This document shows, piece by piece, positions 3,529-48,188 of a DNA stretch of 50,046 nt. Numbering within the stretch: the first letter of the stretch is position 1; each line of letters begins with the position of its first letter. The notes beneath the pieces were generated by a model. It ran no database searches and was not told the origin of the DNA. It was given only the letters and a program-made list of their open reading frames with translations. This DNA is from a virus. The position numbers and the translations under genes are program-made. The stretch covers positions 1 through 50,046 of the IMG/VR virus record IMGVR_UViG_3300047994_000044; one strand, 5' to 3'.

Positions 3529-4102
3529 AGATTATAAGTTCGAAGAAGATTACTGGGGCAACTGTTGCAACACCTTCGATGAAGACCAGAAGCACTACGT
3601 GTATGCCAAGTACATGGGTCTTCAACGTGAACACTATTCCTTTCCTGTCCATAATAAGATCATCATGGATATCGGTGGTGGACCATCGTCAATGCTGTTA
3701 AAGACTAAAGGATTAAAGCGTGGAACGGTTGTTGATCCGATTGCCTATCCACAATGGACGGTTGATCGATACAAGCTTATGAATATCACTGTGGTTATCA
3801 TGCCAGGTGAAGATATCGCTAAAAACGGTTTAGCTTTAAGACATTATGATGAAGTCTGGATCTACAACTGCATGCAACATGCTATCGATCCAGAAAAGAT
3901 CATCAAGAATGCCTTTGCTGCTGCACCAATTTTAAGACTATTTGAATGGATCGATATTCCTGCCCATGATGGTCATCCTCATGAACTCACAGAAGCTAAT
4001 CTTAATAAATGGATTGGTGCCAAAGGTTCTACCGTCAAATTAGCCGAGCAAGGCTGCTATGGTACTGCTTACTATGGAGTTTTTACTCAATTAAGCATAT
4101 AA
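3521..4102 (+). CDS. SAM-dependent methyltransferase-like protein
   Basis: The 193-aa product has a class I methyltransferase-like glycine motif, IIMDIGGGPSSML near residues 45-57, followed by VVDPIAYP (candidate acidic ribose-binding position) and a later IYNCMQHAID segment where the catalytic region would sit. Substrate unknown. The ATG at 3521 overlaps the gp55 stop by 8 bp. A longer frame upstream exists but lacks a better ribosome site. The protein is short for the family, so a substrate-recognition domain may be missing. Confidence 0.55.
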   Translation: MSEDYKFEEDYWGNCCNTFDEDQKHYVYAKYMGLQREHYSFPVHNKIIMDIGGGPSSMLLKTKGLKRGTVVDPIAYPQWTVDRYKLMNITVVIMPGEDIAKNGLALRHYDEVWIYNCMQHAIDPEKIIKNAFAAAPILRLFEWIDIPAHDGHPHELTEANLNKWIGAKGSTVKLAEQGCYGTAYYGVFTQLSI

Positions 4103-4103
4103 T
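4098..4103 (+). promoter_or_regulatory. TATAAT box six bases before the ATG at 4110
   Basis: A perfect -10 hexamer overlaps the stop of the preceding gene and places a predicted start on the A of the ATG at 4110. The -35 region (TGGAGT, 4075-4080) is weak. No Shine-Dalgarno is visible, so the downstream mRNA may be leaderless. Confidence 0.4.
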
Positions 4104-4109
4104 GTTTGG

Positions 4110-4472
4110 ATGAAGAAAATCCGCATTGGAATAACAGGTGGTCGAGACTACGCCAACGAAGCCAAGGTTAGACATGTTTTAGACTTGGCCTATAGTCGTT
4201 TAGAAGACAAGATGTTTCTTGTGGTGGGTTGTGCTCGCGGTGCTGACAAACATGCTCGCACCTGGGCCGCTGATACTCTTCCTCCAGACCAATATGAGAT
4301 TTACAAAGCCGATTGGGACACCTACGGTAAGGCAGCTGGTCATCTCAGAAACAAAGAGATGGCAACGTCCGGATTGAAACTCTTGATTGCCTTTCCTGGC
4401 GGCACAGGTACTGCCAACATGAAAAAGCAATGCGCTGATTTAGGCATCAAGATTTTGGAGATTAAAGAATGA
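4110..4472 (+). CDS. SLOG/YspA-like Rossmann-fold protein
   Basis: A 120-aa protein with the hallmarks of the DUF2493/YspA-type SLOG family: GITGGRDY at residues 7-14, a VVGCARGADKHA motif near 37-48, and LIAFPGGTGTANM near 90-102. These loops bind nucleotide-like ligands in related proteins. In phages the family is proposed to sense or process nucleotide-derived ligands, but the exact role is not established. It precedes gp47 with an ATGA overlap. Confidence 0.75.
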   Translation: MKKIRIGITGGRDYANEAKVRHVLDLAYSRLEDKMFLVVGCARGADKHARTWAADTLPPDQYEIYKADWDTYGKAAGHLRNKEMATSGLKLLIAFPGGTGTANMKKQCADLGIKILEIKE

Positions 4473-5527
4473 AGTATGCAATCTTAGGTGATACTCACTT
4501 TGGATGTCGTAATGATAGCCAGCATTTCCACGACAACTTTGCTAAGTTCTATCAAGAAACTTTCTTTGCAACTATAGTAAAACTTGGTATTAGGGATATT
4601 ATCCAGACTGGTGATTTATTTGACCGTCGTAAATTTATTAATTTTCAAAGTTTGAATCGCGCCCGCGAGTATTTCTTTCATAGTTTATATGATCAAAATA
4701 TGCACATGATTACCTATATTGGGAATCATGATTGTTACTACAAGAATACTCTGCAAATTAATTCCCCACGGCTGCTGTTGTCCGACTACAAGAATTACAT
4801 TACCATCATTGATAAACCGACAACTATTGATGGTATGGATTTTTTCCCATGGATTTGTGCAGATAATCAAGCTGAGACGAATAAGCTTATTGCTGAGTCT
4901 AGATCTCAGATAGCTTTCGGTCATTTTGAATTGACTGGTTTCGAAATGGATGCAGGTGTTCCTTGTATTCACGGTATGAACAGAGATGAACTGAAAAAGT
5001 ATGATATGGTCATCAGCGGTCACTTTCATCACCGTTCAAGTGATGGACATATCTTTTATGTCGGTTCACCATACGAAATGACATGGGCAGACTTCGATGA
5101 TCCGCGTGGCTTCCACATCTTCGATACGGAAACGAGGACATTAGAATTTATAGAGAATCCACACAAGATGTTCTACAAAGTAGCTTATGATGATACTAAT
5201 GAAAATATCAATACGATTGATGCCAAGGACTATGCTGAATTTAAAGACAAGTATGTCAAAGTAGTCGTTAAAAAGAAAAACAGTCACATGTTGTTTGATC
5301 GATTCATCAACAACTTTTATGAACATGAACCGGCTGATTTGAACATTGTTGAAGACTTTACTGATTACAAGGTCGCGGAGACGTTGACTGATAATGTCGA
5401 TCAGGCCGAGCAAACTCATGTCCTATTGGAAAAATATGTTGATGCTGTCGATATGGCATTGGATAAAACTAAAATGAAATCTGTCATGAGACAGATATAC
5501 GACAAGGCACAGAATGGTAGTCTTTAA
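4469..5527 (+). CDS. 47: gp47-like recombination nuclease subunit (SbcD/Mre11 type)
   Basis: The 352-aa metallophosphoesterase carries GDTHFG near residue 8, GDLFDRR near 48, GNHD near 86 and GHFHH near 183, the metal-binding motifs of Mre11/SbcD nucleases. T4 gp47 is about 339 aa and forms the MR complex with gp46, which resects DNA ends for recombination-dependent replication. It overlaps the gp46 gene by 14 bp, which supports co-translation of the two subunits. Confidence 0.93.
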   Translation: MKYAILGDTHFGCRNDSQHFHDNFAKFYQETFFATIVKLGIRDIIQTGDLFDRRKFINFQSLNRAREYFFHSLYDQNMHMITYIGNHDCYYKNTLQINSPRLLLSDYKNYITIIDKPTTIDGMDFFPWICADNQAETNKLIAESRSQIAFGHFELTGFEMDAGVPCIHGMNRDELKKYDMVISGHFHHRSSDGHIFYVGSPYEMTWADFDDPRGFHIFDTETRTLEFIENPHKMFYKVAYDDTNENINTIDAKDYAEFKDKYVKVVVKKKNSHMLFDRFINNFYEHEPADLNIVEDFTDYKVAETLTDNVDQAEQTHVLLEKYVDAVDMALDKTKMKSVMRQIYDKAQNGSL

Positions 5528-7187
5528 AGTAATTAGGTGGATGAATCTGTTTTCAACAGGCAATGCCTGGAATGAAGTGGTTCTCAATAAGAACGCTACT
5601 ACGTTGATCGTTGGTAAGAATGGTCACGGCAAATCAACCCTGCTCGATGCGTTGACGTTTGCTCTGTTTGGTAAGCCGTTTCGAAATATCAACAAACCAA
5701 ATCTTGTCAACTCAATTAATGGTAAGGGTCTTAAAGTAGAACTTGAATTTTCTATTGGTCCCAAGTCATTCAAGATTATTCGTGGTATTGGACCGAATAT
5801 ATTTGAAGTCTATATTGACGGCGAACTACAGAAACAGGATGCAATCAGTGGCGACTACCAGAGTCACTTAGAGAACAACATATTGAAATTTAATCACAAG
5901 GCTTTCACTCAAATTGTGATCCTTGGATCAAAGAGTTTTGTTCCTTTCATGAAGTTGAAGAGCGCAGATCGTCGCAATATTATTGAGAATCTTTTGGATA
6001 TCGAAATATTTTCATCAATGAACAAGATTGCTAAAGATCAGTTTACTAAAGTCAAAGAAGATGTAATCAGCAACAAGTACAACATCGACAATGCTAAGTC
6101 TAAGATCTCATTGCATGAGTCTTACGTGAAAGAGGCCGAAAAGAACAATCAGGAAGAGATTAATCATTTCAATGATGAAATCAAAAAGCTAGAAATAGCT
6201 AATGCCGACTTGGCAACTAAAATTATTAACGTTGATGAACTCATTGCTAATACCAGTGTCGGTGACGTACAAGCATTGCAATCATTGGGTATGAAGATTG
6301 ATACGAAAATCAATGACAAGAAAAAAGAATTGAAGTTCTATCAGGTCAATGATAATTGTCCATCATGTAAGCAGTCTATCAGTGAAAGTTTTCGTGAAAC
6401 CACCATGAGAAATCTTCTTCAAGATATTGAGAAGCGTGAAACCGGATTGAAAGAACTCCAGGCACAATTTACTGCTATGAAAGAGAAGCAGCAGTATGTC
6501 GGTGAGCTACTTAAGCAAAAGAATGACTTACAATATCAGGTAAAGACAAACAATGATTTGATCATGAAAAACGGTAAGAAGATTCTTGCACTCCAAGCTA
6601 AGAACGTGCTAAGCGATGACATGATGAATCAAGCAAAGAAACTTCACGATGAATTGGATGCTTTCAACAATGAAAGAAATCAATTGCTGGAAGATCAGGC
6701 TTACTATCAAGCAGCGGTCGGTCTACTCAAGGATGGTGGTATCAAGGCCCAGATCATCAAGCAGTACCTTCCGGTAATCAACAGTTTGGTCAATAAGTAT
6801 CTTTCTGCCATGGATTTTCACATCTCATTTGAACTCGATGAAGAATTCAATGAAACGATCAAATCCCGCCATCGAGACGATTTTACATATGATTCTTTTT
6901 CCGAAGGGGAAAAACAAAAAATCGACATTGCTTTACTGTTCGCTTGGAGGGCTGTTGCCAAGCTTAAAAATAGCATGAATACTAACTTATTGATTATGGA
7001 CGAAATCTTTGATAGCTCTCTTGACGGTTTGGGTGCTGATCTGGTACTTTCAATCTTGGCCACTTTACCAGAAGGCACTAATGTCTTTGTTATAAGTCAT
7101 AGAGAGTTGCTTCATGACCGTTTTAATGCCACTATACGTTTTGAGAAGCGAAACAATTTTTCAGAAATAGTCGAATTGGAGACCTAA
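5514..7187 (+). CDS. 46: gp46-like recombination ATPase subunit (SbcC/Rad50 type)
   Basis: The 557-aa protein (T4 gp46 about 560 aa) has Walker A GKNGHGKST near residues 33-41, a coiled-coil middle with a CPSC zinc hook near 282-285, an ABC signature FSEGEKQKIDIA near 461 and Walker B LLIMDEIFDSSLD near 494. It drives the gp47 nuclease by ATP-dependent opening and closing. The coiled coil is short compared with cellular Rad50, as usual for phages. Confidence 0.94.
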   Translation: MVVFKVIRWMNLFSTGNAWNEVVLNKNATTLIVGKNGHGKSTLLDALTFALFGKPFRNINKPNLVNSINGKGLKVELEFSIGPKSFKIIRGIGPNIFEVYIDGELQKQDAISGDYQSHLENNILKFNHKAFTQIVILGSKSFVPFMKLKSADRRNIIENLLDIEIFSSMNKIAKDQFTKVKEDVISNKYNIDNAKSKISLHESYVKEAEKNNQEEINHFNDEIKKLEIANADLATKIINVDELIANTSVGDVQALQSLGMKIDTKINDKKKELKFYQVNDNCPSCKQSISESFRETTMRNLLQDIEKRETGLKELQAQFTAMKEKQQYVGELLKQKNDLQYQVKTNNDLIMKNGKKILALQAKNVLSDDMMNQAKKLHDELDAFNNERNQLLEDQAYYQAAVGLLKDGGIKAQIIKQYLPVINSLVNKYLSAMDFHISFELDEEFNETIKSRHRDDFTYDSFSEGEKQKIDIALLFAWRAVAKLKNSMNTNLLIMDEIFDSSLDGLGADLVLSILATLPEGTNVFVISHRELLHDRFNATIRFEKRNNFSEIVELET

Positions 7188-12934: not shown

Positions 12935-13077
12935 TGGTTGAAAAGGCGAAGACACCCGCTAAAGGACCAATTCCTGGCGACCCGCCTCGTGCTCAAACAC
13001 AAAAGGAAGTTCAGGATAGTTGGGATAAGGCTAAAAACTTTCCAGTTGCAATAGCTTCAAAGAGAGATCCTTTATGA
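12934..13077 (+). CDS. Hypothetical 47-aa basic protein
   Basis: The ATG at 12934 overlaps the glycosyltransferase stop (TAATG), and the stop overlaps the next ATG. The product is 47 aa, hydrophilic, proline- and lysine-rich, without a membrane segment or cysteines. The tight overlaps on both sides are the main support. No family is recognised. Confidence 0.6.
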   Translation: MVEKAKTPAKGPIPGDPPRAQTQKEVQDSWDKAKNFPVAIASKRDPL

Positions 13078-13727
13078 TTATAGGTTTAGTTGGTTTTGCT
13101 GGATCTGGTAAAGACACTGTTGGTGACATGTTAGTTGAAATGGGATTCAAAAAAGACAGCTTTGCCAAGCCATTAAAAGATGCTGTTTCAATCATGTTTG
13201 GTTGGGATCGAAAAAAGTTAGAAGGTACAACTAAAGAAGATCGCGCCTGGAGAGAAGTGCCGGATGAATACTGGTCTAAAGTTCTAGGTAAACCTTTTTC
13301 ACCACGTTTGGCTCTTCAGTTGATGGGCACAGAAGCCGGTCGAAATGTTTTTGGTGAACCGCTTTGGACAGCATCATGTTTGAAAAGAATTGCAGATGAT
13401 GCGCCAAATGACTATGTCGTCACTGATGTTCGATTCAAGAATGAAATAGAAGCATTGCATGCAGCCGGTGCAATCATTATGAGGATTAATCGCGGTCCTG
13501 AACCTAATTATTTCATGACAGCATATGATTGGAATTTAAATCACGATTCAAGTTCAGAGTTGCCAGAACTTCTTAAGAATGTTCACCCTAGTGAACGTGA
13601 TTGGATTGGTCATCCATTAATCAAATGGGACATTGGAAATAATGGGACTCTTATAGAACTAAAGCGTAAAATAATAGAAATAGTAAATTTAACTAGAGCA
13701 AAACAATTAAGAGAAAGTATATTATGA
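13074..13727 (+). CDS. 1: gp1-like deoxynucleoside monophosphate kinase
   Basis: A 217-aa P-loop kinase with GFAGSGKDT at residues 7-15, followed by a FAKPLKDAV segment and RLALQLMGTEAGR, both typical of T4 gp1-type dNMP kinases (T4 about 241 aa). The enzyme phosphorylates dTMP, dGMP and modified dCMP to supply dNTPs for phage replication. It lies directly before the clamp genes and overlaps the gp45 start by 4 bp. Confidence 0.85.
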   Translation: MIIGLVGFAGSGKDTVGDMLVEMGFKKDSFAKPLKDAVSIMFGWDRKKLEGTTKEDRAWREVPDEYWSKVLGKPFSPRLALQLMGTEAGRNVFGEPLWTASCLKRIADDAPNDYVVTDVRFKNEIEALHAAGAIIMRINRGPEPNYFMTAYDWNLNHDSSSELPELLKNVHPSERDWIGHPLIKWDIGNNGTLIELKRKIIEIVNLTRAKQLRESIL

Positions 13728-14800: not shown

Positions 14801-15745
14801 ATGATTGGTCAAGGTGAAATACTTTGGTCTGAGATCTATCGACCGCACAAAGTCTCCGAATGCATCATCCCCGATGCGTTAAAAGCAACATTTCAATCAT
14901 ATGTTGATAAGAAAGAGATTCCTAATCTTTTGCTAACTGGTTCTACTGGAACAGGTAAGACTTCTGTTGCCAAAGCATTGTGCGATGAAATAGGTGCAGA
15001 TTATATCTTCATCAACGGCTCGCTTGAGAACGGTGTTGATATTCTTCGCACAAGAATTCAAGGCTTTGGTTCATCTGTATCATTCACAGGTGGCCGCAAA
15101 GTCATTATCGTGGATGAGGCAGACAATTTGACGAGCGCCGCTCAGTTAGCTTTTCGTGGTGTTATTGAAGAACTAAGTGTCAACTGTTCTTTCATTTTTA
15201 CATGCAACTACAAGAATCGAATCATTGAAGCCATCCATAGTCGATGTGCTACTATCGAGTTTAAATTACAAGCTAAAGAAAAGGTTTTGATGGCACAAGC
15301 ATTTAATGCTCGTGTTGGAGAAATTTTATCCAAAGAGAAAATTGAGTTTGAGAAACCCGTTGTCGGACAACTCATTAAAAAGTATTTTCCAGACTATCGC
15401 AAAATTCTCAACGAACTTCAGAAGTTTGCATCTAAGAACGGTGCAATCACAGAAGAGATTTTGTCGCAAGTTTCAGATGCCAAGATCGATGAAATGATTG
15501 GGTATTTAAAGACTCAGAATTTTGCCGGTCTTCGTAAGTGGGTAGCTACGAATTCTGATAATGATTCACTTGTCGTGATCAGGGCACTCTACGACAAAAT
15601 GGAAGAGATATTTAAACCAAAATCACTTCCTGTTCTGGTTGTCCTTACCGGTAGGTATCTTTTTCAGGCCACATCTTGTTTAGATCAAGAAATCAATCTT
15701 GCTGCTTACTTGACAGAGGTGATGGTTGAATGTGAGGTAAAATAA
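14801..15745 (+). CDS. 44: gp44-like clamp loader large subunit
   Basis: A 314-aa AAA+ ATPase (T4 gp44 about 319 aa) with Walker A GSTGTGKTS near residues 47-55, Walker B VIIVDEADNL near 101-110, sensor 1 FTCNYKNR and the SRC motif HSRC near 146. Together with gp62 it opens and loads the gp45 clamp. The next gene begins inside its stop codon (TAATG). The start context ATTATGATT resembles the region bound by RegA in T4 gene 44. Confidence 0.93.
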   Translation: MIGQGEILWSEIYRPHKVSECIIPDALKATFQSYVDKKEIPNLLLTGSTGTGKTSVAKALCDEIGADYIFINGSLENGVDILRTRIQGFGSSVSFTGGRKVIIVDEADNLTSAAQLAFRGVIEELSVNCSFIFTCNYKNRIIEAIHSRCATIEFKLQAKEKVLMAQAFNARVGEILSKEKIEFEKPVVGQLIKKYFPDYRKILNELQKFASKNGAITEEILSQVSDAKIDEMIGYLKTQNFAGLRKWVATNSDNDSLVVIRALYDKMEEIFKPKSLPVLVVLTGRYLFQATSCLDQEINLAAYLTEVMVECEVK

Positions 15746-16128
15746 TGTCTTTGGCAAAATTATTAGGAATAAAAGAAAATCAAGAAACAAAATTTTGTCC
15801 AGAATGTAAAAGGAGTTTGTCCGTAGACTTATTCAGAAAAAGACAAGAAGGTAGGAAACAGGCTAGGGTCTACACATACTGTAGAGAATGTGAAAAGAAA
15901 CTTACTAACGTTTTATTTGATTTGAAAAAAGATATTCGTCCTAAACCTGAAGCTTGTGAATGCTGTTACAAAATTACCGATGCTTTGGTTGTCGATCACG
16001 ATCACGACACAAATAAAGTCAGAGGTTGGATTTGCACTCCCTGCAATGTCGGCATCTCAAGGTTGGGTGACAATCTACCAGGTGTTGAACTGGCTAGAGA
16101 ATATTTAAAGAGAACTCAAAATGGCTGA
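15745..16128 (+). CDS. Endonuclease VII-family HNH nuclease
   Basis: A 127-aa protein with an N-terminal CxxC/CxxC zinc ribbon (residues 17-20 and about 49-52), then the endonuclease VII core: CECC, DHDHD near 84-88, and CTPCN. T4 gp49 of this family resolves branched DNA. The gene sits between the clamp-loader genes 44 and 62, which are adjacent in T4, and it overlaps both. A free-standing homing endonuclease is therefore as likely as a true gp49. All zinc and HNH residues are intact. Confidence 0.85.
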   Translation: MSLAKLLGIKENQETKFCPECKRSLSVDLFRKRQEGRKQARVYTYCRECEKKLTNVLFDLKKDIRPKPEACECCYKITDALVVDHDHDTNKVRGWICTPCNVGISRLGDNLPGVELAREYLKRTQNG

Positions 16129-16911: not shown

Positions 16912-16930
16912 CATGTGATCCCATCACATG
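16912..16930 (+). promoter_or_regulatory. Perfect hairpin that contains the next start codon
   Basis: CATGTGAT (16912-16919), loop CCC, ATCACATG (16923-16930). The ATG of the downstream gene at 16928 is the last three bases of the 3' arm. No Shine-Dalgarno is present. It lies 14 bases after the regA stop. Confidence 0.7.
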
Positions 16931-18319
16931 TTACAGGTGGGATGGAGAAATCAAATTAAAAGTTGGGACGTATTTGATACTTTAATAGCTCGTCGCTATG
17001 TTCGATCTGATACCATTTGGAAAAAGATGGGTGAAGAGATCGATATACCTAATTTTGAATTCCATCGAAAGCAATGCAACTATGGTCCATTGCGTAATAT
17101 CTATACTCAATTAGCCAACCGTGGCGTCATTCCGCACCATTTAATTGATCAGATGATGGAGTACGAGGTTCAATATGAAGAAGATGTCTGTTTTCCGATT
17201 AAAGAAACCATGGAACAAGTCAGTCATGGTGATCTTCTCGTTAGTGATATGTACCTACCTCCTGCTGATATCCTTCGTCTTGTTCGCTCGTGTGGATTGG
17301 ACAAACAAGTCACTATTCATGCTTCCCTCGCTGACAAGCAGCATGGAGTATTCTGGAAGGCAATGAGAGGGCATCTGAGCCTAGAAAGTCACACAGGGGA
17401 TAATGGGCATGCCGACATCAAGCTAGCCGCCCAGGAAGGCTTTAAAGTCGTCCATTATGTTAAATCAGAACAGACCAAAATGGAAAAAGAACTTGAGGCT
17501 AAAGGTCTCAGGGAATTGTCCATGCTGGTGCGCGAAACCAGGCTTAGAAATCATGAGCATTTTGCCGAAATCTTCACAGTCTCTAATCAGCTAAACCTTC
17601 CTTGGATTTTCGTCTGCTGTGAGTTATTGCGTAGGAAACATCCAAACAGGAAACCCGTATTCCTGGGTCGAGACTGCCAACTGTTCTACAAGATCTTTAA
17701 TACTTACTTTAGTGAAGCATCTTATTACTTACCGTTTAGTCGTCGGGCAGCATACAAAGATCCTAAAGCGGCTGTTCAGTACATCAAGTCGCATGTTCCG
17801 GAAAATTACATTCTGGTCGATATCTCTAGTACGGGTAGGACTTGGAACATGATCGGACAACACCATGTGTTTGATATCGAGATTCTACATTTCGATCATC
17901 GCAATGACATTCCTATTCCAAAGAATTTTACTTGGTTTAACAAAGATTATAGTGGGAACGCCAGGGGTACCAATTTATTGTTGGAAATCTTTAATTGTGC
18001 TGACCACGGAATGATGGATGAGATTCGATTGGTCAACGGTTTACCTATAGCTAAATTCGATTCAAGCTATGAAATAGATCCAGAACACATCAAAGCTATT
18101 CATCAACCATTCAAGACTGCCTTAGAATTAAAGAAGCACTACCACATGTTGAAGTCTGAAATGGCACAGATCGATGAAAAGACTTTGTGGTATTTCTTCG
18201 ATGTCTTGCCTAGGTCAATATGTGTCTTTCAAGACTCTTTGAGGGATACGACATTCAAAGTTTTCTATGAAAAACATAAAGAATATCTGACAGAATTGAT
18301 GACACAATTACGTTATTAA
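16928..18319 (+). CDS. HAD-like phosphatase/surface-polysaccharide-type protein
   Basis: A 463-aa protein with an N-terminal SWDVFDTLIARR motif (residues about 12-23), the DxFDT form of HAD motif I, and LLVSDMYLP near 100, the second HAD motif. Such long HAD-like proteins occur in cell-surface glycan biosynthesis clusters. The C-terminal half is unassigned. The start is uncertain: the first ATG is inside a hairpin and lacks a Shine-Dalgarno, and a GTG at 16937 is an alternative. Confidence 0.65.
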   Translation: MLQVGWRNQIKSWDVFDTLIARRYVRSDTIWKKMGEEIDIPNFEFHRKQCNYGPLRNIYTQLANRGVIPHHLIDQMMEYEVQYEEDVCFPIKETMEQVSHGDLLVSDMYLPPADILRLVRSCGLDKQVTIHASLADKQHGVFWKAMRGHLSLESHTGDNGHADIKLAAQEGFKVVHYVKSEQTKMEKELEAKGLRELSMLVRETRLRNHEHFAEIFTVSNQLNLPWIFVCCELLRRKHPNRKPVFLGRDCQLFYKIFNTYFSEASYYLPFSRRAAYKDPKAAVQYIKSHVPENYILVDISSTGRTWNMIGQHHVFDIEILHFDHRNDIPIPKNFTWFNKDYSGNARGTNLLLEIFNCADHGMMDEIRLVNGLPIAKFDSSYEIDPEHIKAIHQPFKTALELKKHYHMLKSEMAQIDEKTLWYFFDVLPRSICVFQDSLRDTTFKVFYEKHKEYLTELMTQLRY

Positions 18320-18363: not shown

Positions 18364-18900
18364 ATGTTCCAATGGTTGCTGAACAAGCTAGAAGCTAATG
18401 GCCGAAAACTGGTGATCTACGACAGAGACGGAGTAGATCCGTATCTTACGCGCTATTACCTTGCCTATCCTGATGGCGACGCTAGGAAAGCGACTGGGGT
18501 AAGGGAAGACATCCCTTACAATACATTCCTCCATCAGTTCATACGATCAGATGATGATGTGTTTCATACACATCCTTGGGATTGGTATTTCACCGTCATT
18601 TTGAAAGGTGGTTACTGGGCGCATTCCCCATGGGGAACAAAATGGATGGGTCCAGGTACGGTTAAGTATCAAAATTGTCGAACTATGCGTCAGTGGTACA
18701 ACAAAGATCTTGGAAAGAGTTTCCTACTTCCAGCAAATTTACATTGGGTTGAGATACCAAAGCCTGGTAAAACTTGGACACTTTTTACACGCGGAAAGAC
18801 AATCAACAAAGGCTTTTGGGGTTTCTGGCCAGATAGAACAACAGCAGACATCGTTAGGCACGATATCTACTTAGAAAAACAAAGGATTAAAAATGGTTAA
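18364..18900 (+). CDS. Cupin-like phage protein
   Basis: The 178-aa protein contains DDVFHTHPWDWYFTVILKGG near residues 61-80, where the HxH and later Glu match the metal-binding motif of the cupin barrel. A second barrel strand region LPANLHWVEIP follows near 120. Cupins include oxygenases, isomerases and sugar-binding proteins, and the substrate here is unknown. It overlaps the next gene by 8 bp. Confidence 0.65.
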   Translation: MFQWLLNKLEANGRKLVIYDRDGVDPYLTRYYLAYPDGDARKATGVREDIPYNTFLHQFIRSDDDVFHTHPWDWYFTVILKGGYWAHSPWGTKWMGPGTVKYQNCRTMRQWYNKDLGKSFLLPANLHWVEIPKPGKTWTLFTRGKTINKGFWGFWPDRTTADIVRHDIYLEKQRIKNG

Positions 18901-19735
18901 TGGTTGGAGTGGAAATAACCATTCAAAAAGAAAAATACAAATTCTTACATGTGGATCTTGCGGTGATGAGTTTGAAACTAAACATCCTGTAAAATCTAAA
19001 GATGGTATATGGAGATGTAAGAATTGTAACAAAAGAAGTAATGAGTTTCATACTAAATTAACTGATGCAGAATACAATGAAATGTTTCTGAATCAGGGTG
19101 GGGTGTGTGCTATTTGTAAAAAACCTGAATTTAGAAAGATGCGTGGATCTGATGCAGTTAGAAAACTGTGCGTAGATCACGATCACGAGACTGGAAAGGT
19201 TCGAGCATTATTATGTGGTCATTGTAATACTGCTATAGGTATGTTGAAAGAAAACGTGTCAACACTAATTAATGCTAAAGTTTATTTACAAAAACATAGT
19301 GATAAAATTCCTTCTTGGGATCAATATTTTATGGATTTAGCTCTTTTGGCTTCCACTCGCTCAAAAGATCCTTCAACAAAAGTTGGTGCTATTTTGGTTA
19401 AAAATAAGAGAATAGTGTCTACAGGATACAATGGTATGCCTTTTATGGTGGACGACACCATTCCTGAAAGATGGGAAAGACCCGATAAGTATAATTTTGT
19501 AATTCATGCTGAGGCTAACGCGATAGCTTTTGCGAACGGTGTTAGGGATTTGGATGTAGTTTACACGACACTGTTTCCTTGTACCAGTTGTGCTTGTTTA
19601 TTGATACAAACTGGGGTTAAAGAGATTGTGTATGACACAAAAATCAATCCTAGATTTGAAAGAGAATTTGCAATTTCAAAACAAATGTTTGACGAATCTA
19701 ATGTTAAAGTTAGACCATTCGATAGAAGTTGTTAA
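18893..19735 (+). CDS. Endonuclease VII-like domain fused to dCMP deaminase
   Basis: A 280-aa protein of two complete domains. Residues 1-135: a zinc ribbon (CGSCG, CKNC) and an endonuclease VII HNH core with CAIC, DHDHE near 95-99 and CGHCN. Residues about 142-280: a dCMP deaminase that begins WDQYFMDLALLASTRSKDPS, with zinc motifs HAEANAI near 204 and PCTSC near 228. The deaminase makes dUMP for thymidylate synthesis and fits the ThyX in this window. No stop or frameshift separates the domains. The DNA looks more AT-rich than its neighbours, which suggests recent arrival of the first domain. Confidence 0.88.
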   Translation: MVNGWSGNNHSKRKIQILTCGSCGDEFETKHPVKSKDGIWRCKNCNKRSNEFHTKLTDAEYNEMFLNQGGVCAICKKPEFRKMRGSDAVRKLCVDHDHETGKVRALLCGHCNTAIGMLKENVSTLINAKVYLQKHSDKIPSWDQYFMDLALLASTRSKDPSTKVGAILVKNKRIVSTGYNGMPFMVDDTIPERWERPDKYNFVIHAEANAIAFANGVRDLDVVYTTLFPCTSCACLLIQTGVKEIVYDTKINPRFEREFAISKQMFDESNVKVRPFDRSC

Positions 19736-37948: not shown

Positions 37949-37957
37949 GGAATGAAG

Positions 37958-38650
37958 ATGCAAGACAAAATTGAAGTATTGAATGGCGGTTACGTTCGTT
38001 TAGTTGATCACATGGGTAATGATTTATCTATAGTTCGTTCTGCTCGCGTATCATACGACGCTGATTGGCGTGAACCTGAAGGTGATGAAGCTATTGGTAA
38101 AGATGCTAAGCTGATTCATTATTTGATGAAGAACCACCATACATCTCCTTTTGAATCTGTGACATTTACGTTCGAAGTAAAGGCACCAATTTTTGTGTTT
38201 AGACAATGGCATCGTCATCGCACATGGTCATACAATGAAGTCAGTGCCCGATACACTGAATTAGATATGGGTTACTATGTTCCTGAATTGGAGCAGATCA
38301 CTACACAATCATCATCTAACAAACAAATGCGTACAAATGAACAAAACCCATTTGCTGAAATGGCTAGGATTATGATTGATACTCAATGTAATGCAGCTTT
38401 TGTAGCATACAAAGGTATGATCGATAGAGGCATTCCTCGTGAGTTAGCTCGTGGTGTTCTCCCTGTGAATTCTTATTCAAAAATGTTTGCTACTGTAAAT
38501 CTTCATAATCTATTAAACAATTTTATCGTTCTTCGTGATCACGATCATGCCCAACATGAAGTGAGAGTTTATGCTCAAGCTATGAAAGAATTAATTAAGC
38601 CAATTGTTCCAGTTACGATAGCTGCGTTCGATGAGTTGAGGAATCAATAA
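37958..38650 (+). CDS. thyX: ThyX flavin-dependent thymidylate synthase
   Basis: The 230-aa protein carries the ThyX motif RHRTWSYNEVSARY near residues 87-100, plus FVFRQW before it. It converts dUMP to dTMP with reduced flavin and methylenetetrahydrofolate. The ATG at 37958 is spaced correctly from AAGGA (37948-37952); an ATG at 37952 lies on top of it. It precedes the ribonucleotide reductase and fits with the deaminase fusion that supplies dUMP. Confidence 0.93.
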   Translation: MQDKIEVLNGGYVRLVDHMGNDLSIVRSARVSYDADWREPEGDEAIGKDAKLIHYLMKNHHTSPFESVTFTFEVKAPIFVFRQWHRHRTWSYNEVSARYTELDMGYYVPELEQITTQSSSNKQMRTNEQNPFAEMARIMIDTQCNAAFVAYKGMIDRGIPRELARGVLPVNSYSKMFATVNLHNLLNNFIVLRDHDHAQHEVRVYAQAMKELIKPIVPVTIAAFDELRNQ

Positions 38651-38713: not shown

Positions 38714-40645
38714 ATGGCGGTTGAGTTGCCTACCATTTATCAACAGTTTATTCATGTCGGTCATTACGCTCGTTACCGCGACGATTTAGGAAGAAGAGAA
38801 ACCTGGGAAGAAACTGTAGATCGCTACATAGATTTTTTTAAGGCTCGCACCAAAACAGGTTCAAGAAAGATTCCATGGGACGAACTTCGTTCAGCTATTT
38901 TGAATCTTGAAGTTATGCCATCTATGAGATCTTTGATGACTGCTGGTCCTGCTTTAGAGAAGGATCAAGTTGCTGGTTATAATTGCTCATACCTTCCAAT
39001 CGATAGTCAAAAAGCATTTGATGAAATCATGTATTTGCTTAGCTGTGGTTGCGGTGTTGGATTTAGTGTTGAATCTCGTTACACAAATAAACTTCCTGAG
39101 GTACCAGATGAACTCCACGAAACAGATACCACCGTTGTCTTTAAGGACTCCAAACTTGGATGGGCATCTGGCTTTCGTGAATTTATATCACTCCTATATT
39201 CTGGAAAGATTGCGAAATGGGATGTCAGTCTCTTGCGCCCAGCTGGTGCTAGGCTCAAAACTTTTGGAGGAAGAGCTAGCGGACCAGAACCATTAGTGGA
39301 TCTTTTGAAATTTGCGATCATTTTGTTCAACAAAGCTAAAGGTCGTAAACTGACGCCAATTGAGTGTCATGATCTTGTCTGTAAAGTTGCTGATGTAATC
39401 GTGTCCGGTGGTGTCCGTCGTTCTGCTTTGATTAGCCTCACTGATTTGAATGACGATAAAATGCGTCTATCCAAGTCAGGTAACTGGTGGCTCGATAACA
39501 ATCAGCGCGCACTTGCCAATATCAGCGCAGTCTATGAAGATAAGCCGGATATAGGTACGTTCATGGCTGAATGGTTGGCTCTTTACAATTCTCATTCTGG
39601 TGAGCGAGGAATTTTTTCTCGTAAGGCATCACAGCTTATTGCTGCACAGTATGGTCGTCGTGATCCGGATATAGACTACGGTACTAACCCATGTTCTGAA
39701 ATCATTCTTCGTCCATATCAGTTTTGTAACTTGACCGAAGTGGTTGTTCGAGCAACTGACACCAAAGAAGACTTGTCTCGTAAGGTGCGTTTGGCGACGA
39801 TCCTTGGAACATTGCAGAGTACGGTATCTGACTTTCGCTACATCAACAAGAAGTGGAAAAAGAACACCGAAGAAGAAAGATTGTTGGGTGTTAGCTTGAC
39901 TGGCATCATGGATCATTCTTTATTGAATGGTAATGATTATGGCCCGTTTCCTGGTGCTGGATTGACAGGCCGAATCAACGCAAACCTTGCTCCGACATTG
40001 AAAGATTTGCGTGAATTAGCAGTGAAGACCAACATTGAATTTGCTGATTACTTGGATATCGAACATTCAGCAGCTATTACATGCGTCAAGCCATCTGGCA
40101 CTGTCTCTCAGCTGGTTGATTCTGCATCTGGAATTCACCCACGTTACGCTCCGTACTATATACGTAGAGTAAGACTTGGAAAAACCGATCCACTGGGTCA
40201 GTTCATGATGGACAACGGTTACAAGGCTGAAGAGGATTTCTACAACAAGTCTTCATGGGTATTTTCATTCCCAATGAAAGCACCTGAAGGTAGTAGATTT
40301 GTTAAAGATATGACTGCTATTCAGCAGCTTGAACATTGGCTTGTTTTTCAAGACAACTGGTGTGAACACAAGCCATCAATAACCGTATATGTTGGTGAAG
40401 ATGAATGGCTAGAAGTTGGTTCTTGGGTTTACAAACATATTGATAGATTATCAGGTGTTTCATTCTTGCCAAGAGACACCGGTACTTACCGTCAGGCTCC
40501 GTATGAGGAAATTGATGAAGCCAAGTACAATGAATTGTTAGCTACTCAAAACGTTAATTTTGATTGGAAGCAATTCAAAGAAGAGCAAGACAATACTGAA
40601 AATACAAAAACACTTGCATGTGTAAGCGGTGTTTGCGAACTTTAA
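38714..40645 (+). CDS. nrdJ: NrdJ class II (B12-dependent) ribonucleotide reductase
   Basis: The 643-aa protein is a class II ribonucleotide reductase that uses adenosylcobalamin for its radical, so no NrdB subunit is needed. Visible are GYNCSYLP near residue 90 (redox Cys), GCGVGFSVESR near 112, VSGGVRRSALISL, NPCSEIILRPYQFCNLTE near 326 (active-site Cys), KPSGTVSQL near 458 and a C-terminal CVSGVC pair (637-642) that recycles the disulfide. It makes deoxynucleotides for phage DNA. No intron or intein interrupts it. Confidence 0.93.
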   Translation: MAVELPTIYQQFIHVGHYARYRDDLGRRETWEETVDRYIDFFKARTKTGSRKIPWDELRSAILNLEVMPSMRSLMTAGPALEKDQVAGYNCSYLPIDSQKAFDEIMYLLSCGCGVGFSVESRYTNKLPEVPDELHETDTTVVFKDSKLGWASGFREFISLLYSGKIAKWDVSLLRPAGARLKTFGGRASGPEPLVDLLKFAIILFNKAKGRKLTPIECHDLVCKVADVIVSGGVRRSALISLTDLNDDKMRLSKSGNWWLDNNQRALANISAVYEDKPDIGTFMAEWLALYNSHSGERGIFSRKASQLIAAQYGRRDPDIDYGTNPCSEIILRPYQFCNLTEVVVRATDTKEDLSRKVRLATILGTLQSTVSDFRYINKKWKKNTEEERLLGVSLTGIMDHSLLNGNDYGPFPGAGLTGRINANLAPTLKDLRELAVKTNIEFADYLDIEHSAAITCVKPSGTVSQLVDSASGIHPRYAPYYIRRVRLGKTDPLGQFMMDNGYKAEEDFYNKSSWVFSFPMKAPEGSRFVKDMTAIQQLEHWLVFQDNWCEHKPSITVYVGEDEWLEVGSWVYKHIDRLSGVSFLPRDTGTYRQAPYEEIDEAKYNELLATQNVNFDWKQFKEEQDNTENTKTLACVSGVCEL

Positions 40646-45270: not shown

Positions 45271-45341
45271 GTCCTCGAAGACAAACGGTAAGTCGCCCGA
45301 ATTTGAATCGGGAGAAGCAGGTTCAATTCCTGTCAAGGATC
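45271..45341 (+). tRNA. tRNA-Gln (TTG), first copy
   Basis: Acceptor GTCCTCG/CAAGGAT with one C-A mismatch. The anticodon arm CCCGA-ATTTGAA-TCGGG gives TTG. T-arm GCAGG-TTCAATT-CCTGT. D-stem of 3 bp (GAC/GTC). No CCA is encoded. Confidence 0.7.
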
Positions 45342-45343
45342 TT

Positions 45344-45398
45344 GCAGGGTTTTATCCATAACATTAGAAACGCTTCACCCTGGCGCGGATTGTTATGG
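45344..45398 (+). ncRNA. Candidate H-type pseudoknot
   Basis: CAGGG (45345-45349) can pair with CCCTG (45378-45382), and CCATAAC (45356-45362) with GTTATGG (45392-45398). The two helices cross, which makes a pseudoknot directly between tRNA-Gln and tRNA-Lys. Confidence 0.4.
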
Positions 45399-45406
45399 TC
45401 TTATTC

Positions 45407-45482
45407 GGGTCTGTCGTATAACGGCTATTATATCTCCCTCTTAAGGAGCACGATCAGGGTTCAAATCCCTGCGGACCCACCA
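45407..45482 (+). tRNA. tRNA-Lys (CTT)
   Basis: Acceptor GGGTCTG/CGGACCC, discriminator A, CCA encoded. Anticodon loop CTCTTAA gives CTT. T-arm CAGGG-TTCAAAT-CCCTG. Confidence 0.85.
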
Positions 45483-45488
45483 AAATTT

Positions 45489-45562
45489 GGGCTGTTAGTT
45501 AAATGGGATAACAGTGGCCTTGCAAGTCACTATTGAGAGTTCGATTCTCTCACGGTCCACCA
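45489..45562 (+). tRNA. tRNA-Ala (TGC)
   Basis: Acceptor GGGCTGT/ACGGTCC, A, CCA encoded. Anticodon arm GTGGC-CTTGCAA-GTCAC gives TGC. T-arm GAGAG-TTCGATT-CTCTC. Confidence 0.88.
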
Positions 45563-45602
45563 AATACGTGTTGTCGGTACTAGAGTAGAGAACCGTCGTT
45601 AC

Positions 45603-45677
45603 GCTCTCAAAGCATTGTTGGCGATGCACGGGTTTTGTAAGCCTGAGAACTCAGTTCGATTCCGAGTGAGAGCACCA
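45603..45677 (+). tRNA. tRNA-Thr (TGT)
   Basis: Acceptor GCTCTCA/TGAGAGC perfect, A, CCA encoded. Anticodon arm CGGGT-TTTGTAA-GCCTG gives TGT. D-arm GCAT/ATGC. The T-stem has one mismatch. The 40 nt before it (45563-45602) hold a CGGT/ACCG hairpin only. Confidence 0.88.
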
Positions 45678-45683
45678 ATTTAT

Positions 45684-45760
45684 GGGTTGTTCGTCTACGT
45701 TGGCTAAGACCGTAGTCTCCAAAACTATCAAAGGCGGATCGTCACCGTCACAACCTGCCA
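45684..45760 (+). tRNA. tRNA-Trp (CCA)
   Basis: Acceptor GGGTTGT/ACAACCT, G, CCA encoded. Anticodon arm GTAGT-CTCCAAA-ACTAT gives CCA. The T-arm GGCGG-ATCGTCA-CCGTC has a non-standard loop instead of TTCGAAT. Confidence 0.8.
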
Positions 45761-45794
45761 CTAAATACTCCAAACAACAAAATAAGGTTTGGAG
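45761..45794 (+). promoter_or_regulatory. TAAATA late-type box fused to a hairpin that hides the HNH ribosome site
   Basis: CTAAATA (45761-45767) is followed by CTCCAAAC (45768-45775) pairing with GTTTGGAG (45787-45794), which contains the GGAG of the ORF at 45797. A late start near 45774 would remove the 5' arm. The layout is like the regulation known for the T4 homing endonuclease I-TevI. Confidence 0.65.
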
Positions 45795-45796
45795 TC

Positions 45797-46143
45797 ATGT
45801 CGATAAGAAATATAAAAAAAGTCAGACAATCTCGTAGAGATTGGTACGCTAAGAACCAACAACATGCAATCTCTAAAATCAAAGAAAGACGATCTATATT
45901 GAAAGAATGGATTCAAGAATTCAAAAAAATTTAATGTGCGCTAAATGTGGACAAAATCATCCGGCAACATTGCAATTTCATCATTCTGATCCATCACAAA
46001 AAGATATTGAAATTAGCCAAATGCATAAGCAAGGCTATTCAATTCATAGGATGAAAGAAGAAATCGCGAAGTGCGTTGTGCTGCGTGCCAATTGTCACGC
46101 TATCGTACACTACGAAGAAAGAAATAATCTCGCTGTGGTATAG
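45797..46143 (+). pseudogene. HNH endonuclease split by a frameshift
   Basis: Frame one (45797-45934) encodes the N-terminal basic helix (RRDWYAKNQQHAISKIKERR). A run of seven A (45923-45929) precedes its stop. The -1 frame continues as NLMCAKCGQNHPATLQFHH...KCVVLRANCHAIVHYEE, an HNH/zinc core, to 46143. The second zinc pair reads RxxC where CxxC is expected (one base change). Frameshift plus lost zinc ligand indicate decay, though slippage on A7 could restore the frame. It sits inside the tRNA island, and its 3' end overlaps tRNA-Arg. Confidence 0.8.
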
Positions 46144-46203
46144 AGGATGTGCCTTGAGCTTCTACCTCAATGAACGTCGGTTCGAATCCGGCCAGCGGGT
46201 CCA
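46129..46203 (+). tRNA. tRNA-Arg (TCT)
   Basis: Acceptor CTCGCTG/CAGCGGG, T, CCA encoded. Anticodon arm TTGAG-CTTCTAC-CTCAA gives TCT. T-arm GTCGG-TTCGAAT-CCGGC. Its first 15 bases are also the last codons of the HNH reading frame. Confidence 0.85.
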
Positions 46204-46210
46204 AAATTAT

Positions 46211-46301
46211 GGTGCAGTAAAACCCTTAAGGATGGGGACCGGTCTGTAAAACCGGTGAGCCTAATAAGCCTAGCCAGGATCGTTACCTGGATGCACCACC
46301 A
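46211..46301 (+). tRNA. tRNA-Tyr (GTA)
   Basis: Acceptor GGTGCAG/ATGCACC (one mismatch), A, CCA encoded. Anticodon arm CCGGT-CTGTAAA-ACCGG gives GTA. A long variable arm is present as expected for bacterial Tyr. T-loop ATCGTTA. Confidence 0.85.
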
Positions 46302-46306
46302 AATTC

Positions 46307-46402
46307 GGTCCTATAGTTTAATGGTTAAAACACCACCCTTATAAAGTGGCTTTGGCGGCAGATTACCGCATGATCCAGGTTCGAGTCCTGGTGGGACTAC
46401 CA
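46307..46402 (+). tRNA. tRNA-Ile (TAT) with an unusual long variable arm
   Basis: Acceptor GGTCCTA/TGGGACT, A, CCA encoded. Anticodon loop CTTATAA gives TAT. The variable region is about 25 nt with a GCGG/CCGC helix, a class II feature not expected for Ile. T-arm CCAGG-TTCGAGT-CCTGG. Confidence 0.7.
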
Positions 46403-46406
46403 AATC

Positions 46407-46485
46407 GCCTCTGTAGCAGAATTGGCATATGCACTGCACTTAAAACGCGGGTTACTTGCGGGTTCGACTCCCGCTGGAGGCACCA
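46407..46485 (+). tRNA. tRNA-Leu (TAA)
   Basis: Acceptor GCCTCTG/TGGAGGC, A, CCA encoded. Anticodon loop CTTAAAA gives TAA. T-arm GCGGG-TTCGACT-CCCGC. The variable region is short for Leu. Confidence 0.82.
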
Positions 46486-46491
46486 AACAAA

Positions 46492-46574
46492 GTCTCTATC
46501 TTGCGGGTAGAGACAGCCCACCACCCGGCAGGAGTGGGCATTACGGTTGCCGCAAGCAACACCGGATGACGTAA
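46492..46574 (+). ncRNA. Structured RNA with candidate kissing loops
   Basis: Hairpins GTCTCTA/TAGAGAC (46492-46514), GCCCAC/GTGGGC (46516-46539) and GTTGC-CGCAA-GCAAC (46546-46560), the last enclosed by TTACG/CGTAA (46541-46574). Loop 1 contains TTGCG (46501-46505), complementary to the CGCAA loop. No tRNA features or ORF. Confidence 0.6.
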
Positions 46575-46591
46575 CCGGTTCAATATATTTT

Positions 46592-46667
46592 CAGGGTGTC
46601 GGTTAGCGGCTATACCACATGCCTTGGGCGCATGGAATCGCGAGTTCGAGTCTCGCCACCTTGACCA
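46592..46667 (+). tRNA. tRNA-Pro (TGG), first copy
   Basis: Acceptor CAGGGTG/CACCTTG, A, CCA encoded. Anticodon arm CATGC-CTTGGGC-GCATG gives TGG. T-arm GCGAG-TTCGAGT-CTCGC. Confidence 0.88.
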
Positions 46668-46676
46668 CGATCATAC

Positions 46677-46761
46677 GATAGCAAAGATCTACAAGTAGCT
46701 ATCCAGGCTGAACCATTTCGTAGCCTCTCTCGGTTCAGTATGGTGAGAGGGTGAGTAGATC
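46677..46761 (+). ncRNA. Candidate double-pseudoknot RNA
   Basis: GATAGC/GCTATC (46677-46682, 46698-46703) encloses GATCTAC (46686-46692), which pairs with GTAGATC (46755-46761). CTGAACC/GGTTCAG (46708-46714, 46732-46738) encloses CCTCTC (46724-46729), which pairs with GAGAGG (46745-46750). All four helices are perfect and two pairs cross. No ORF or tRNA features. Confidence 0.65.
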
Positions 46762-46774
46762 ACATTTTAATTTT

Positions 46775-46861
46775 CTAGTTTTCAAAAACTAGATGGTGGA
46801 GTGGTTAGACTTAGGTCTGCCCCAAAAATGCGCTAAAGCCGACGCTAAAATATCGGATTAT
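46775..46861 (+). other. tRNA-like remnant
   Basis: Contains a D-arm-like GGTGGAGTGGTTAGACTTAG (from 46794) and a CCGA/TCGG hairpin but no T-arm or CCA. It is preceded by CTAGTTT/AAACTAG (46777-46794). Probably the 5' part of a lost Leu- or Ser-type tRNA. Confidence 0.4.
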
Positions 46862-46936
46862 GCTCTGTTAGATTACCGGCTAGATCGACGCCCTTTCAAG
46901 GCGTAGGAAGGGGATCGACACCCCTACGGAGTACCA
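46862..46936 (+). tRNA. tRNA-Glu (TTC)
   Basis: Acceptor GCTCTGT/ACGGAGT, A, CCA encoded. Anticodon arm ACGCC-CTTTCAA-GGCGT gives TTC. T-arm AGGGG-ATCGACA-CCCCT, with a non-standard loop. Confidence 0.85.
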
Positions 46937-46942
46937 ATTTAT

Positions 46943-47017
46943 GCGGATGTGGTACAAAGGCTGTGCCCCTGGCTTCCAACCAAGAGTATACGAGTTCGAG
47001 TCTCGTCTTCCGCTCCA
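46943..47017 (+). tRNA. tRNA-Gly (TCC)
   Basis: Acceptor GCGGATG/CTTCCGC (one mismatch), T, CCA encoded. Anticodon loop CTTCCAA gives TCC. T-arm ACGAG-TTCGAGT-CTCGT. Confidence 0.87.
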
Positions 47018-47022
47018 ATTTC

Positions 47023-47106
47023 GGTTCTGTAGCTCAATAGTAGAGCGTCAGGTTAGATAGCATCAAACCAGAAGGCTATGCGGTTCAAATCCCATCAGAG
47101 CCACCA
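47023..47106 (+). tRNA. tRNA of uncertain identity with enlarged anticodon arm
   Basis: Acceptor GGTTCTG/CAGAGCC, A, CCA encoded; D-arm GCTC/GAGC. The anticodon arm is 25 nt: TCAGGTT pairs with AACCAGA (one mismatch) around an 11-nt loop AGATAGCATCA that holds CAT and GCA triplets. The T-stem needs a bulged C. It could be Met, Cys or a decayed gene. Confidence 0.55.
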
Positions 47107-47113
47107 AGTTTAT

Positions 47114-47196
47114 TCTCTTGTAGCTCAATATCGAGAGCTTACTGCCGTTTTCGCGAACGGTAAGTGATGGAGGTCCGAATCCTTCCGAGAGAGCCA
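47114..47196 (+). tRNA. tRNA of uncertain identity with extended, bulged anticodon arm
   Basis: Acceptor TCTCTTG/CGAGAGA, G, CCA encoded; D-stem GCTC/GAGC but a D-loop without GG. The anticodon arm is about 25 nt: TTAC/GTAA and CGTT/AACG separated by a 3-nt bulge with loop TTCGCG. The anticodon cannot be assigned. T-arm GGAGG-TCCGAAT-CCTTC. Confidence 0.5.
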
Positions 47197-47201
47197 ATTA
47201 C

Positions 47202-47277
47202 GTCCCGGTAGCACAATGGATAATGTTTACGCCTCCTAAGCGTTAAGGTACAGGTTCGATTCCTGTTCGGGACACCA
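47202..47277 (+). tRNA. tRNA-Arg (CCT)
   Basis: Acceptor GTCCCGG/TCGGGAC, A, CCA encoded. Anticodon loop CTCCTAA gives CCT. T-arm ACAGG-TTCGATT-CCTGT. Confidence 0.87.
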
Positions 47278-47283
47278 ATTTAT

Positions 47284-47358
47284 TGACCCTTAGCTCAGAG
47301 GCAGAGCGTTGTCTTTACACGGCAAAAGTCGAGATTTCGAAATTCTCAGGGTCAACCA
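47284..47358 (+). tRNA. tRNA-Val (TAC)
   Basis: Acceptor TGACCCT/AGGGTCA perfect, A, CCA encoded. Anticodon arm TTGTC-TTTACAC-GGCAA gives TAC. T-arm GAGAT-TTCGAAA-TTCTC with one mismatch. Confidence 0.85.
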
Positions 47359-47364
47359 CTTTAT

Positions 47365-47412
47365 GCGGCACGGTTCTAGAGCTTACGACACTAACCTGTC
47401 GGTGCCGCTCCA
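47365..47412 (+). other. 48-nt mini-tRNA: acceptor stem plus T-arm-like hairpin
   Basis: GCGGCAC (47365-47371) pairs perfectly with GTGCCGC (47402-47408), followed by T and an encoded CCA. Stacked on it is CGACA-CTAACC-TGTCG. D-arm and anticodon arm are absent and replaced by a 14-nt linker. The usual island linkers flank it on both sides. Confidence 0.6.
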
Positions 47413-47416
47413 ATTC

Positions 47417-47492
47417 GGGTCCTTAACTCAAATGGAAAGAGTCACGCCTTTTAAGCGCAGAGATGTGGGATCATACCCCACAGGACCCACCA
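47417..47492 (+). tRNA. tRNA-Lys (TTT)
   Basis: Acceptor GGGTCCT/AGGACCC perfect, A, CCA encoded. Anticodon loop CTTTTAA gives TTT, with a weak stem (two mismatches). T-arm GTGGG-ATCATAC-CCCAC, with a non-standard loop. Confidence 0.8.
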
Positions 47493-47512
47493 ATCAGTAA
47501 GGAGATTTTCTC

Positions 47513-47665
47513 ATGGCTCAGATCACTAGAAAATATCCAATCGTAGTAGACGGTAAACACATCACTCGATGCACAGTCGTTGATGGTGGAAAAACTGTCC
47601 AAGTCTACTTTCTTGATGAATCAGGAAAGAGATTTAATTCTCTACGAGAATTGCTTTCACTTTAA
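47513..47665 (+). CDS. Hypothetical 50-aa protein inside the tRNA island
   Basis: ATG at 47513 behind AAGGAG (47498-47503) at proper spacing; stop TAA at 47663-47665. The product is 50 aa, beta-rich then helical (ITRKYPIVVDGKHITRCTVV and KRFNSLRELLSL). It lies between tRNA-Lys and tRNA-Ile. No family is recognised. The good ribosome site and intact frame support expression. Confidence 0.65.
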   Translation: MAQITRKYPIVVDGKHITRCTVVDGGKTVQVYFLDESGKRFNSLRELLSL

Positions 47666-47668
47666 TAT

Positions 47669-47743
47669 GCGTCTATCGTCCAATGGCAAAGACATCTGCC
47701 TGATTAGCGGAGAATCGCGGTTCGAGTCCGTGTAGACGTACCA
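47669..47743 (+). tRNA. tRNA-Ile (GAT)
   Basis: Acceptor GCGTCTA/TAGACGT, A, CCA encoded. Anticodon arm TCTGC-CTGATTA-GCGGA gives GAT. T-arm CGCGG-TTCGAGT-CCGTG. Confidence 0.87.
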
Positions 47744-47749
47744 CTTTAT

Positions 47750-47824
47750 GGTCCCATGATCTAATGGCTATGATTTCTCTCTGTCTAAGAGAAAGTAGGA
47801 GTTCGATTCTCCTTGGGATCGCCA
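47750..47824 (+). tRNA. tRNA-Asp (GTC)
   Basis: Acceptor GGTCCCA/TGGGATC, G, CCA encoded. Anticodon arm TCTCT-CTGTCTA-AGAGA gives GTC. T-arm AGGAG-TTCGATT-CTCCT. Confidence 0.9.
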
Positions 47825-47831
47825 AGTTTAT

Positions 47832-47907: not shown

Positions 47908-47917
47908 ATTTAAGTTC

Positions 47918-47994: not shown

Positions 47995-47997
47995 AAC

Positions 47998-48061: not shown

Positions 48062-48065
48062 ATCT

Positions 48066-48139: not shown

Positions 48140-48188
48140 TTTAGTGAAACACACCAGGCAATTAGAGCCAAAATGTCTTTCTTTATTT

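Follow-up and report, generated by a model that had tools for sequence, protein, structure and literature searches.

Endonuclease VII of bacteriophage T4 (gp49) carries its catalytic motif at the N-terminus, and helical dimerisation and C-terminal parts follow the catalytic domain. According to PMC6083498, most DHHRN proteins with an N-terminal endonuclease VII motif group with resolvases, while most of those with a C-terminal motif fall among the homing and restriction endonucleases. It describes F-CphI of cyanophage S-PM2 as a separate, intron-associated DHHRN homing endonuclease with CxxC, DHxH, R and CxxC-N at the C-terminal end of a small nuclease, a layout found also in putative homing endonucleases, and presents Hpy99I as a stand-alone restriction enzyme beside a methylase. 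Homing endonucleases occur fused to host proteins (PMC5259590) and interrupt the ribonucleotide reductase genes of phages (Aeh1, Twort, ZC03/ZC08; PMC5418858), so the general idea of a mobile nuclease joined to another gene has precedent. Phage dCMP deaminases (T4 cd, 1vq2; S-TIM5, 4p9c; PF00383, PHROG 174) have HAE, PCxxC and GYNGxP motifs, and the solved dCMP deaminases we compared have the length of a deaminase alone, with no nuclease ahead of it at the N-terminus. Activity on dCMP and allosteric control through dCTP/dTTP also mark this class of enzyme.

The gene examined here combines the two kinds of domain. It lies in a 50,046-nucleotide stretch of virus DNA (IMG/VR record IMGVR_UViG_3300047994_000044), the whole of which was analysed and is called the window below. 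A single uninterrupted frame encodes, in order, an N-terminal zinc ribbon, an endonuclease VII-type ββα-Me nuclease core, a linker of about five residues and a full dCMP deaminase with the motifs of its phage relatives (Table 1). Pfam places Endonuclease_7 (PF02945) at residues 52–133 (E 7.3e-19) and dCMP_cyt_deam_1 (PF00383) at residues 141–247 (E 5.8e-23). An AlphaFold model of the whole protein has two confident domains (mean pLDDT 90.6, pTM 0.68), the last nuclease helix spanning residues 122–135 and the first deaminase helix beginning at 142. Both domains are of known kinds. Their combination appears to be new: the open-licence literature searched yielded no account of a dCMP deaminase with an endonuclease VII or HNH nuclease joined to it, in agreement with the initial annotation, which knew of no described protein of this form.

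The upstream gene, with its stop at 18900, extends over the ATG of the fusion, directly 5′ of which stands AAAGGA. No separate deaminase start is evident among the in-frame start codons of the fusion; an ATG/TTG at codons 117–118 falls within the nuclease rather than after the linker, and the first ATG beyond the linker, codon 147, already belongs to the first deaminase helix. The fusion region has no excess of promoter-like sites (two, against a shuffle mean of 4.3). With neither a suitable internal start nor such an excess, the deaminase is most likely produced only as part of the fusion.

Table 1 Features of the fused gene and of related genes in the window.
Feature	Position	Strand	Basis
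Fused nuclease-deaminase gene, 280 aa	18893..19735	+	Open frame, Pfam domains, same fusion in 10 other contigs
Zinc ribbon at the N-terminus (C20/C23, C42/C45)	18950..19027	+	Sequence; four Cys in 5/8 lineages; Hpy99I profile match covers region
Endonuclease VII-type (DHHRN) nuclease core, residues 52–133	19046..19291	+	PF02945; PDB profile matches; VIA-align
Catalytic stretch DHDH ... R ... C-x2-C-N, residues 95–112	19175..19228	+	Column conservation across 8 lineages
Linker, end of nuclease helix to deaminase (from 141)	19298..19312	+	DSSP on model
dCMP deaminase domain, residues 141–275; GYNGMP 178–183, HAE 205–207, PCTSC 229–233	19313..19717	+	PF00383; fold matches
Free-standing endonuclease VII-type gene; overlaps the clamp-loader genes on either side (gp44-like, gp62-like)	15745..16128	+	PF02945 2.3e-12; neighbours by Pfam
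dNMP kinase-like gene	13074..13727	+	PF21448 2.1e-11
ThyX thymidylate synthase, dUMP consumer	37952..38650	+	PF02511 2.9e-53
Ribonucleotide reductase, class II-like	38714..40645	+	PF02867 2.3e-11, PF21995 4.5e-06

The window comes from a virus collection built largely from metagenomes, a setting in which two genes might be joined by an assembly or sequencing artefact. We therefore give weight to recurrence. A pattern scan of IMG/VR for the nuclease DHxH together with the deaminase HAE and PCxxC at matching spacing returned 19 stretches, eight of which hold the in-frame fusion, and a scan by deaminase alignment found it in 10 of the 80 best loci, adding two contigs. Altogether 21 fused frames among 499 sequences (498 loci plus the window) reduce to 11 contigs, the window included, and to eight lineages: the window, L086, L087 (=L088), L089, L091, L094, L097 (=L103) and L421 (near-identical to L422). 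The relatives are 38–47% identical to the window protein, the junction is similar across the fusions (‘..YL..-SW(D/H)xYF’), and the contigs that carry them include some of 124 to 360 kb. Because the same type of in-frame joint recurs in 10 other contigs, which with the window make up eight lineages, we dismiss chance or assembly error, an explanation to which we attach next to no credence; the predicted protein is a real family of divergent phages. The initial annotation had inferred from the window an in-frame fusion of two domains with all visible catalytic and zinc residues and a whole deaminase after a short linker. Each of these points holds (C72, C75, D95, H96, H98, R104, C108, C111 and N112 in the nuclease; H205, E207, C230 and C233 in the deaminase), the domain pair that it had proposed to seek in databases is present in the further IMG/VR contigs, and its concern about a missed frameshift between the domains is answered by those same contigs.

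Other collections yielded little. Four fusion queries were compared by tblastn with 50,697 INPHARED phage records, counting matches with coverage of at least 80%; no such match was found for the window query (0 of 2597 matching records), the L097 query (0 of 4131) or the L087 query (0 of 3965), and the L421 query gave six among 3509. Five of these six proved to be Rhodobacter phages in which a ribonucleotide reductase and a deaminase are listed under the match, and RcIroh was set aside as a fusion carrier after inspection revealed two separate genes. Neither Rhizobium RHph_TM3_3_9 nor Synechococcus S-CBS2, Tunturi_5 or PMBT14, all considered as candidates, has a nuclease-deaminase fusion. Under the criteria applied, the fusion was found in none of the 69 matching plasmid records (72,556 searched); nor was it seen in the best 80 bacterial loci listed or in the 119 stretches listed by a further scan. 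PHROG 174 aligned to residues 24–279 and was considered as a family that holds fusions, but the nuclease half alone has no PHROG 174 match, and the idea was dropped. Two neighbouring arrangements were seen along the way: in L113 (1990–3480) an endonuclease VII-type gene and a dCMP deaminase gene lie close but separate, with about 700 bases between them, and in Pseudomonas phage Ab18 (L003, 1480–2016) a dCMP deaminase has an N-terminal CxxC...CxxC stretch without a nuclease.

The nuclease half shares its catalytic domain and residues with T4 endonuclease VII, and this likeness raises the question of whether a Holliday-junction resolvase of the gp49 type has been fused to the deaminase. Its best solved match is Hpy99I (3fc3), with a profile E-value of 3.6e-11 over residues 11–138, ribbon region included; T4 endonuclease VII follows at 1.9e-10 over residues 63–125. 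Modelled alone (pLDDT 89.1), the half best matched the folds of Hpy99I (Z 6.7; Foldseek 1.4e-5) and T4 endonuclease VII (Z 6.5), followed closely by CBASS Cap5 (Z 6.4), modest values for matches that VIA-align drew solely from Foldseek’s list, and for the class assignment the sequence-profile match outweighs them. The motif is that of endonuclease VII (DHHRN) rather than the classic HNH, and the initial label of an HNH nuclease has been dropped. It occupies residues 72–112, after the ribbon, and the nuclease ends near residue 135, which makes the motif C-terminal within the nuclease. From N112 to the deaminase there are only 28 residues, too few to hold what follows the catalytic domain in the T4 enzyme, and no dimerisation family was found among Pfam matches to the fusion at E up to 1. 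We thus place this half with the endonucleases rather than the resolvases, which is also where its layout would fall in the grouping of PMC6083498, and regard a fused resolvase as very improbable. The best reading of these motifs and matches is a putative homing-type DHHRN endonuclease resembling F-CphI and Hpy99I. It differs from both in being fused to an enzyme, and from F-CphI perhaps also in lacking a nearby intron: a search of the window and seven related loci for group I introns gave none at Rfam gathering cut-offs, below which phage introns may score. Homing endonucleases of the F-CphI kind are commonly, but need not be, associated with introns.

Across the eight lineages, C72, C75, D95, H96, H98, R104, C108 and C111 of the nuclease are invariant and N112 is kept in seven lineages, being Ser in L421/L422; the full C-x2-C, DHxH, R, C-x2-C-N motif is present in the window protein and in seven of the eight lineages in all. 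The four ribbon cysteines are found in five. L089 and L421 lack the ribbon; in the L091 lineage it is not in frame, a similar stretch being encoded upstream in a different frame through either a true frameshift or a sequencing error. L421 and L422, with Ser in place of the catalytic Asn and the ribbon gone, have an intact deaminase. Across all lineages the deaminase retains H205, E207, C230, C233 and the GYNGxP residues (G178–G181, P183), and the lineages share on average 43% pairwise identity in the nuclease domain and 49% in the deaminase. The nuclease part thus seems to decay in some lineages. In L423 a ribbon-coding stretch was observed at about 4528–4680, upstream of the fusion and in a different frame, by frameshift, slippage or sequencing error.

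Such wear could mean that the nuclease half has lost its cutting activity and is now just an N-terminal extension of the deaminase with a DNA-binding or structural role. The Asn-to-Ser change in L421/L422 and the lost or frameshifted ribbons of L089, L421 and the L091 lineage point that way. Against this, eight core residues (D95, H96, H98, R104 and the four cysteines) are unchanged everywhere and N112 nearly so despite the low mean identity of the domain, and we consider a purely non-cutting role quite improbable.

The deaminase half resembles known dCMP deaminases closely in fold, with Z values of 22.5 to the human and PBCV-1 bi-DCD enzymes, 20.0 to that of S. mutans, 19.4 to that of S-TIM5 and 18.8 to that of T4 (rmsd 1.3–1.9 over 134–140 residues). 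The fusion is the sole PF00383 match in all ten records examined, four of which measure 204–360 kb. Thymidylate synthase was found in five of the ten (ThyX in four, ThyA in one) and dUTPase in three, counts to be read with the possibility that the records are fragments. From the conserved residues, the fold, the absence of a second deaminase and the ThyX gene of the window, we infer that the C-terminal half is the phage’s working dCMP deaminase. By family knowledge it would convert dCMP to dUMP, which the phage ThyX would then convert to dTMP.

These surroundings bear on the idea that the two activities are functionally coupled, the nuclease delivering the deaminase to DNA that is cut or branched, or helping to degrade host DNA, so that dCMP is recycled into dUMP and dTMP at the point of need. 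ThyX, the dNMP kinase and ribonucleotide reductase all lie in the window, and the fusion has survived deep divergence, with most lineages still having an intact nuclease active site. However, deaminases of the dCMP kind act on free nucleotides, so that no gain from tethering is evident, and they are unfused in 70 of the 80 nearest viral loci. The in-frame ribbon is missing from three of the eight lineages, and the lineage without the catalytic Asn has retained its deaminase, which argues against any necessary coupling. We hold this explanation to be unlikely, and the initial suggestion that the fusion links cutting to local dUMP supply gained no positive support.

The genomic setting is that of a T4-like replication module, in the order UvsW, gp46/47-like, gp45, gp44, free-standing endonuclease VII, gp62, RegA, fusion, DNA polymerase, UvsX, gp41-like helicase, ThyX and the reductase; the polymerase shares about 42% identity with those of cyanophages. 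The free-standing endonuclease VII is 38% identical to residues 91–142 of the fusion and is likely a homing endonuclease insertion. In a survey of ten flanking ORFs from four related loci, a non-random sample picked because several looked nuclease-like, L423 had HNH genes above the cut-off at 3983–4528 and 6590–7036, L419 had one GIY-YIG/NUMOD3 gene, and three further HNH matches fell below the cut-off. In the 360 kb fusion-carrying record G009, ThyX is interrupted in frame by intein-like inserts with HNH and LAGLIDADG domains, as one 1052-residue frame (L501, 133–3291) with three ThyX pieces around the inserts; G008 has the same three pieces. A second endonuclease VII match in G007 (C1:33396–33628) extends over two overlapping frames and is perhaps a decayed copy.

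Taken with the class of the nuclease, this setting suggests that the fusion is probably a working dCMP deaminase that carries a DHHRN homing-type nuclease favouring inheritance of the composite gene. The nuclease would show some sequence preference in nicking or cutting DNA, and cutting of genomes that lack the fused gene would favour inheritance of the composite one. Welded in frame to a needed enzyme, it could not be removed by simple gene deletion, and this would account for the retention of the fusion by divergent phages, including those whose nuclease seems to be decaying. The F-CphI-like layout, Hpy99I as the best structure match, the mobile-nuclease surroundings and the wear of the nuclease part speak for this reading; some of the surroundings are not nuclease-rich, which speaks against it. 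Moreover, an active site kept in seven of eight deeply divergent lineages is more than one would predict if a homing module, once fixed, simply decayed. We found no pair of phages in which one carries the nuclease at a given site and the other lacks it, so homing itself is inferred. Of the initial proposal that a mobile nuclease landed upstream of the deaminase and fused with it, the mobile character fits the F-CphI/Hpy99I-like architecture, the second endonuclease VII gene and the abundance of nucleases around some of the relatives; a homing event as such was not seen.

A bolder version holds that the composite gene is a self-spreading homing unit that cuts competitors’ dCMP-deaminase loci, or sites nearby, while selection on the deaminase shields the nuclease. 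We consider this conceivable but rather doubtful. If true, a gene drive and a nucleotide enzyme that the phage needs would spread together as a single protein. On the homing-type reading in general, the family joins a homing-type nuclease domain to an enzyme of nucleotide biosynthesis in divergent, often large, phages, and so offers a concrete case in which to ask how mobile nucleases become fixed in needed phage genes and whether fusions of this sort work as gene drives in nature. The homing endonucleases of Aeh1, Twort and ZC03/ZC08 likewise place a mobile nuclease in a nucleotide-metabolism gene; as described in PMC5418858 they disrupt the reductase gene, whereas the nuclease in the window is an N-terminal in-frame extension. 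Proteins of this kind are also at risk of being annotated only as ‘endonuclease VII’ or only as ‘dCMP deaminase’.

The fusion may have arisen once, in an ancient event, or several times. In a deaminase tree of 69 rows the fused rows are clustered, requiring four changes against a shuffled mean of 7.7, with none of 500 shuffles as low; L089 stands apart from the other fused rows. This tree and the AU test were computed without five long-branch rows (L102, L454, L482, L465, L436), and with these included the fused rows need six changes rather than four. A single clade of all eight fused lineages was not rejected for the deaminase (AU p 0.116) or, in a set of 48 rows, for the nuclease (p 0.469). 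The nuclease tree of the large set, which has too few columns, required eight changes against 7.9 in shuffles. Nuclease and deaminase distances are correlated over the eight lineages (r 0.50, p 0.021) but not when L089 is left out (r 0.25, p 0.13). An origin through ‘WDxYL’ tails shared with free-standing endonuclease VII genes was discarded; such tails were seen among pattern-selected loci but in 0 of 166 endonuclease VII tails from loci not selected in that way. Composition was likewise set aside as a sign of recent nuclease acquisition, both halves being AT-rich, with GC3 of 0.20 and 0.26 against a gene-set mean of 0.36. Elsewhere in the window, a 463-residue gene at 16928–18319 has no Pfam match up to E 1, and 27 tRNA matches lie within about 4.7 kb at 45271–49995.
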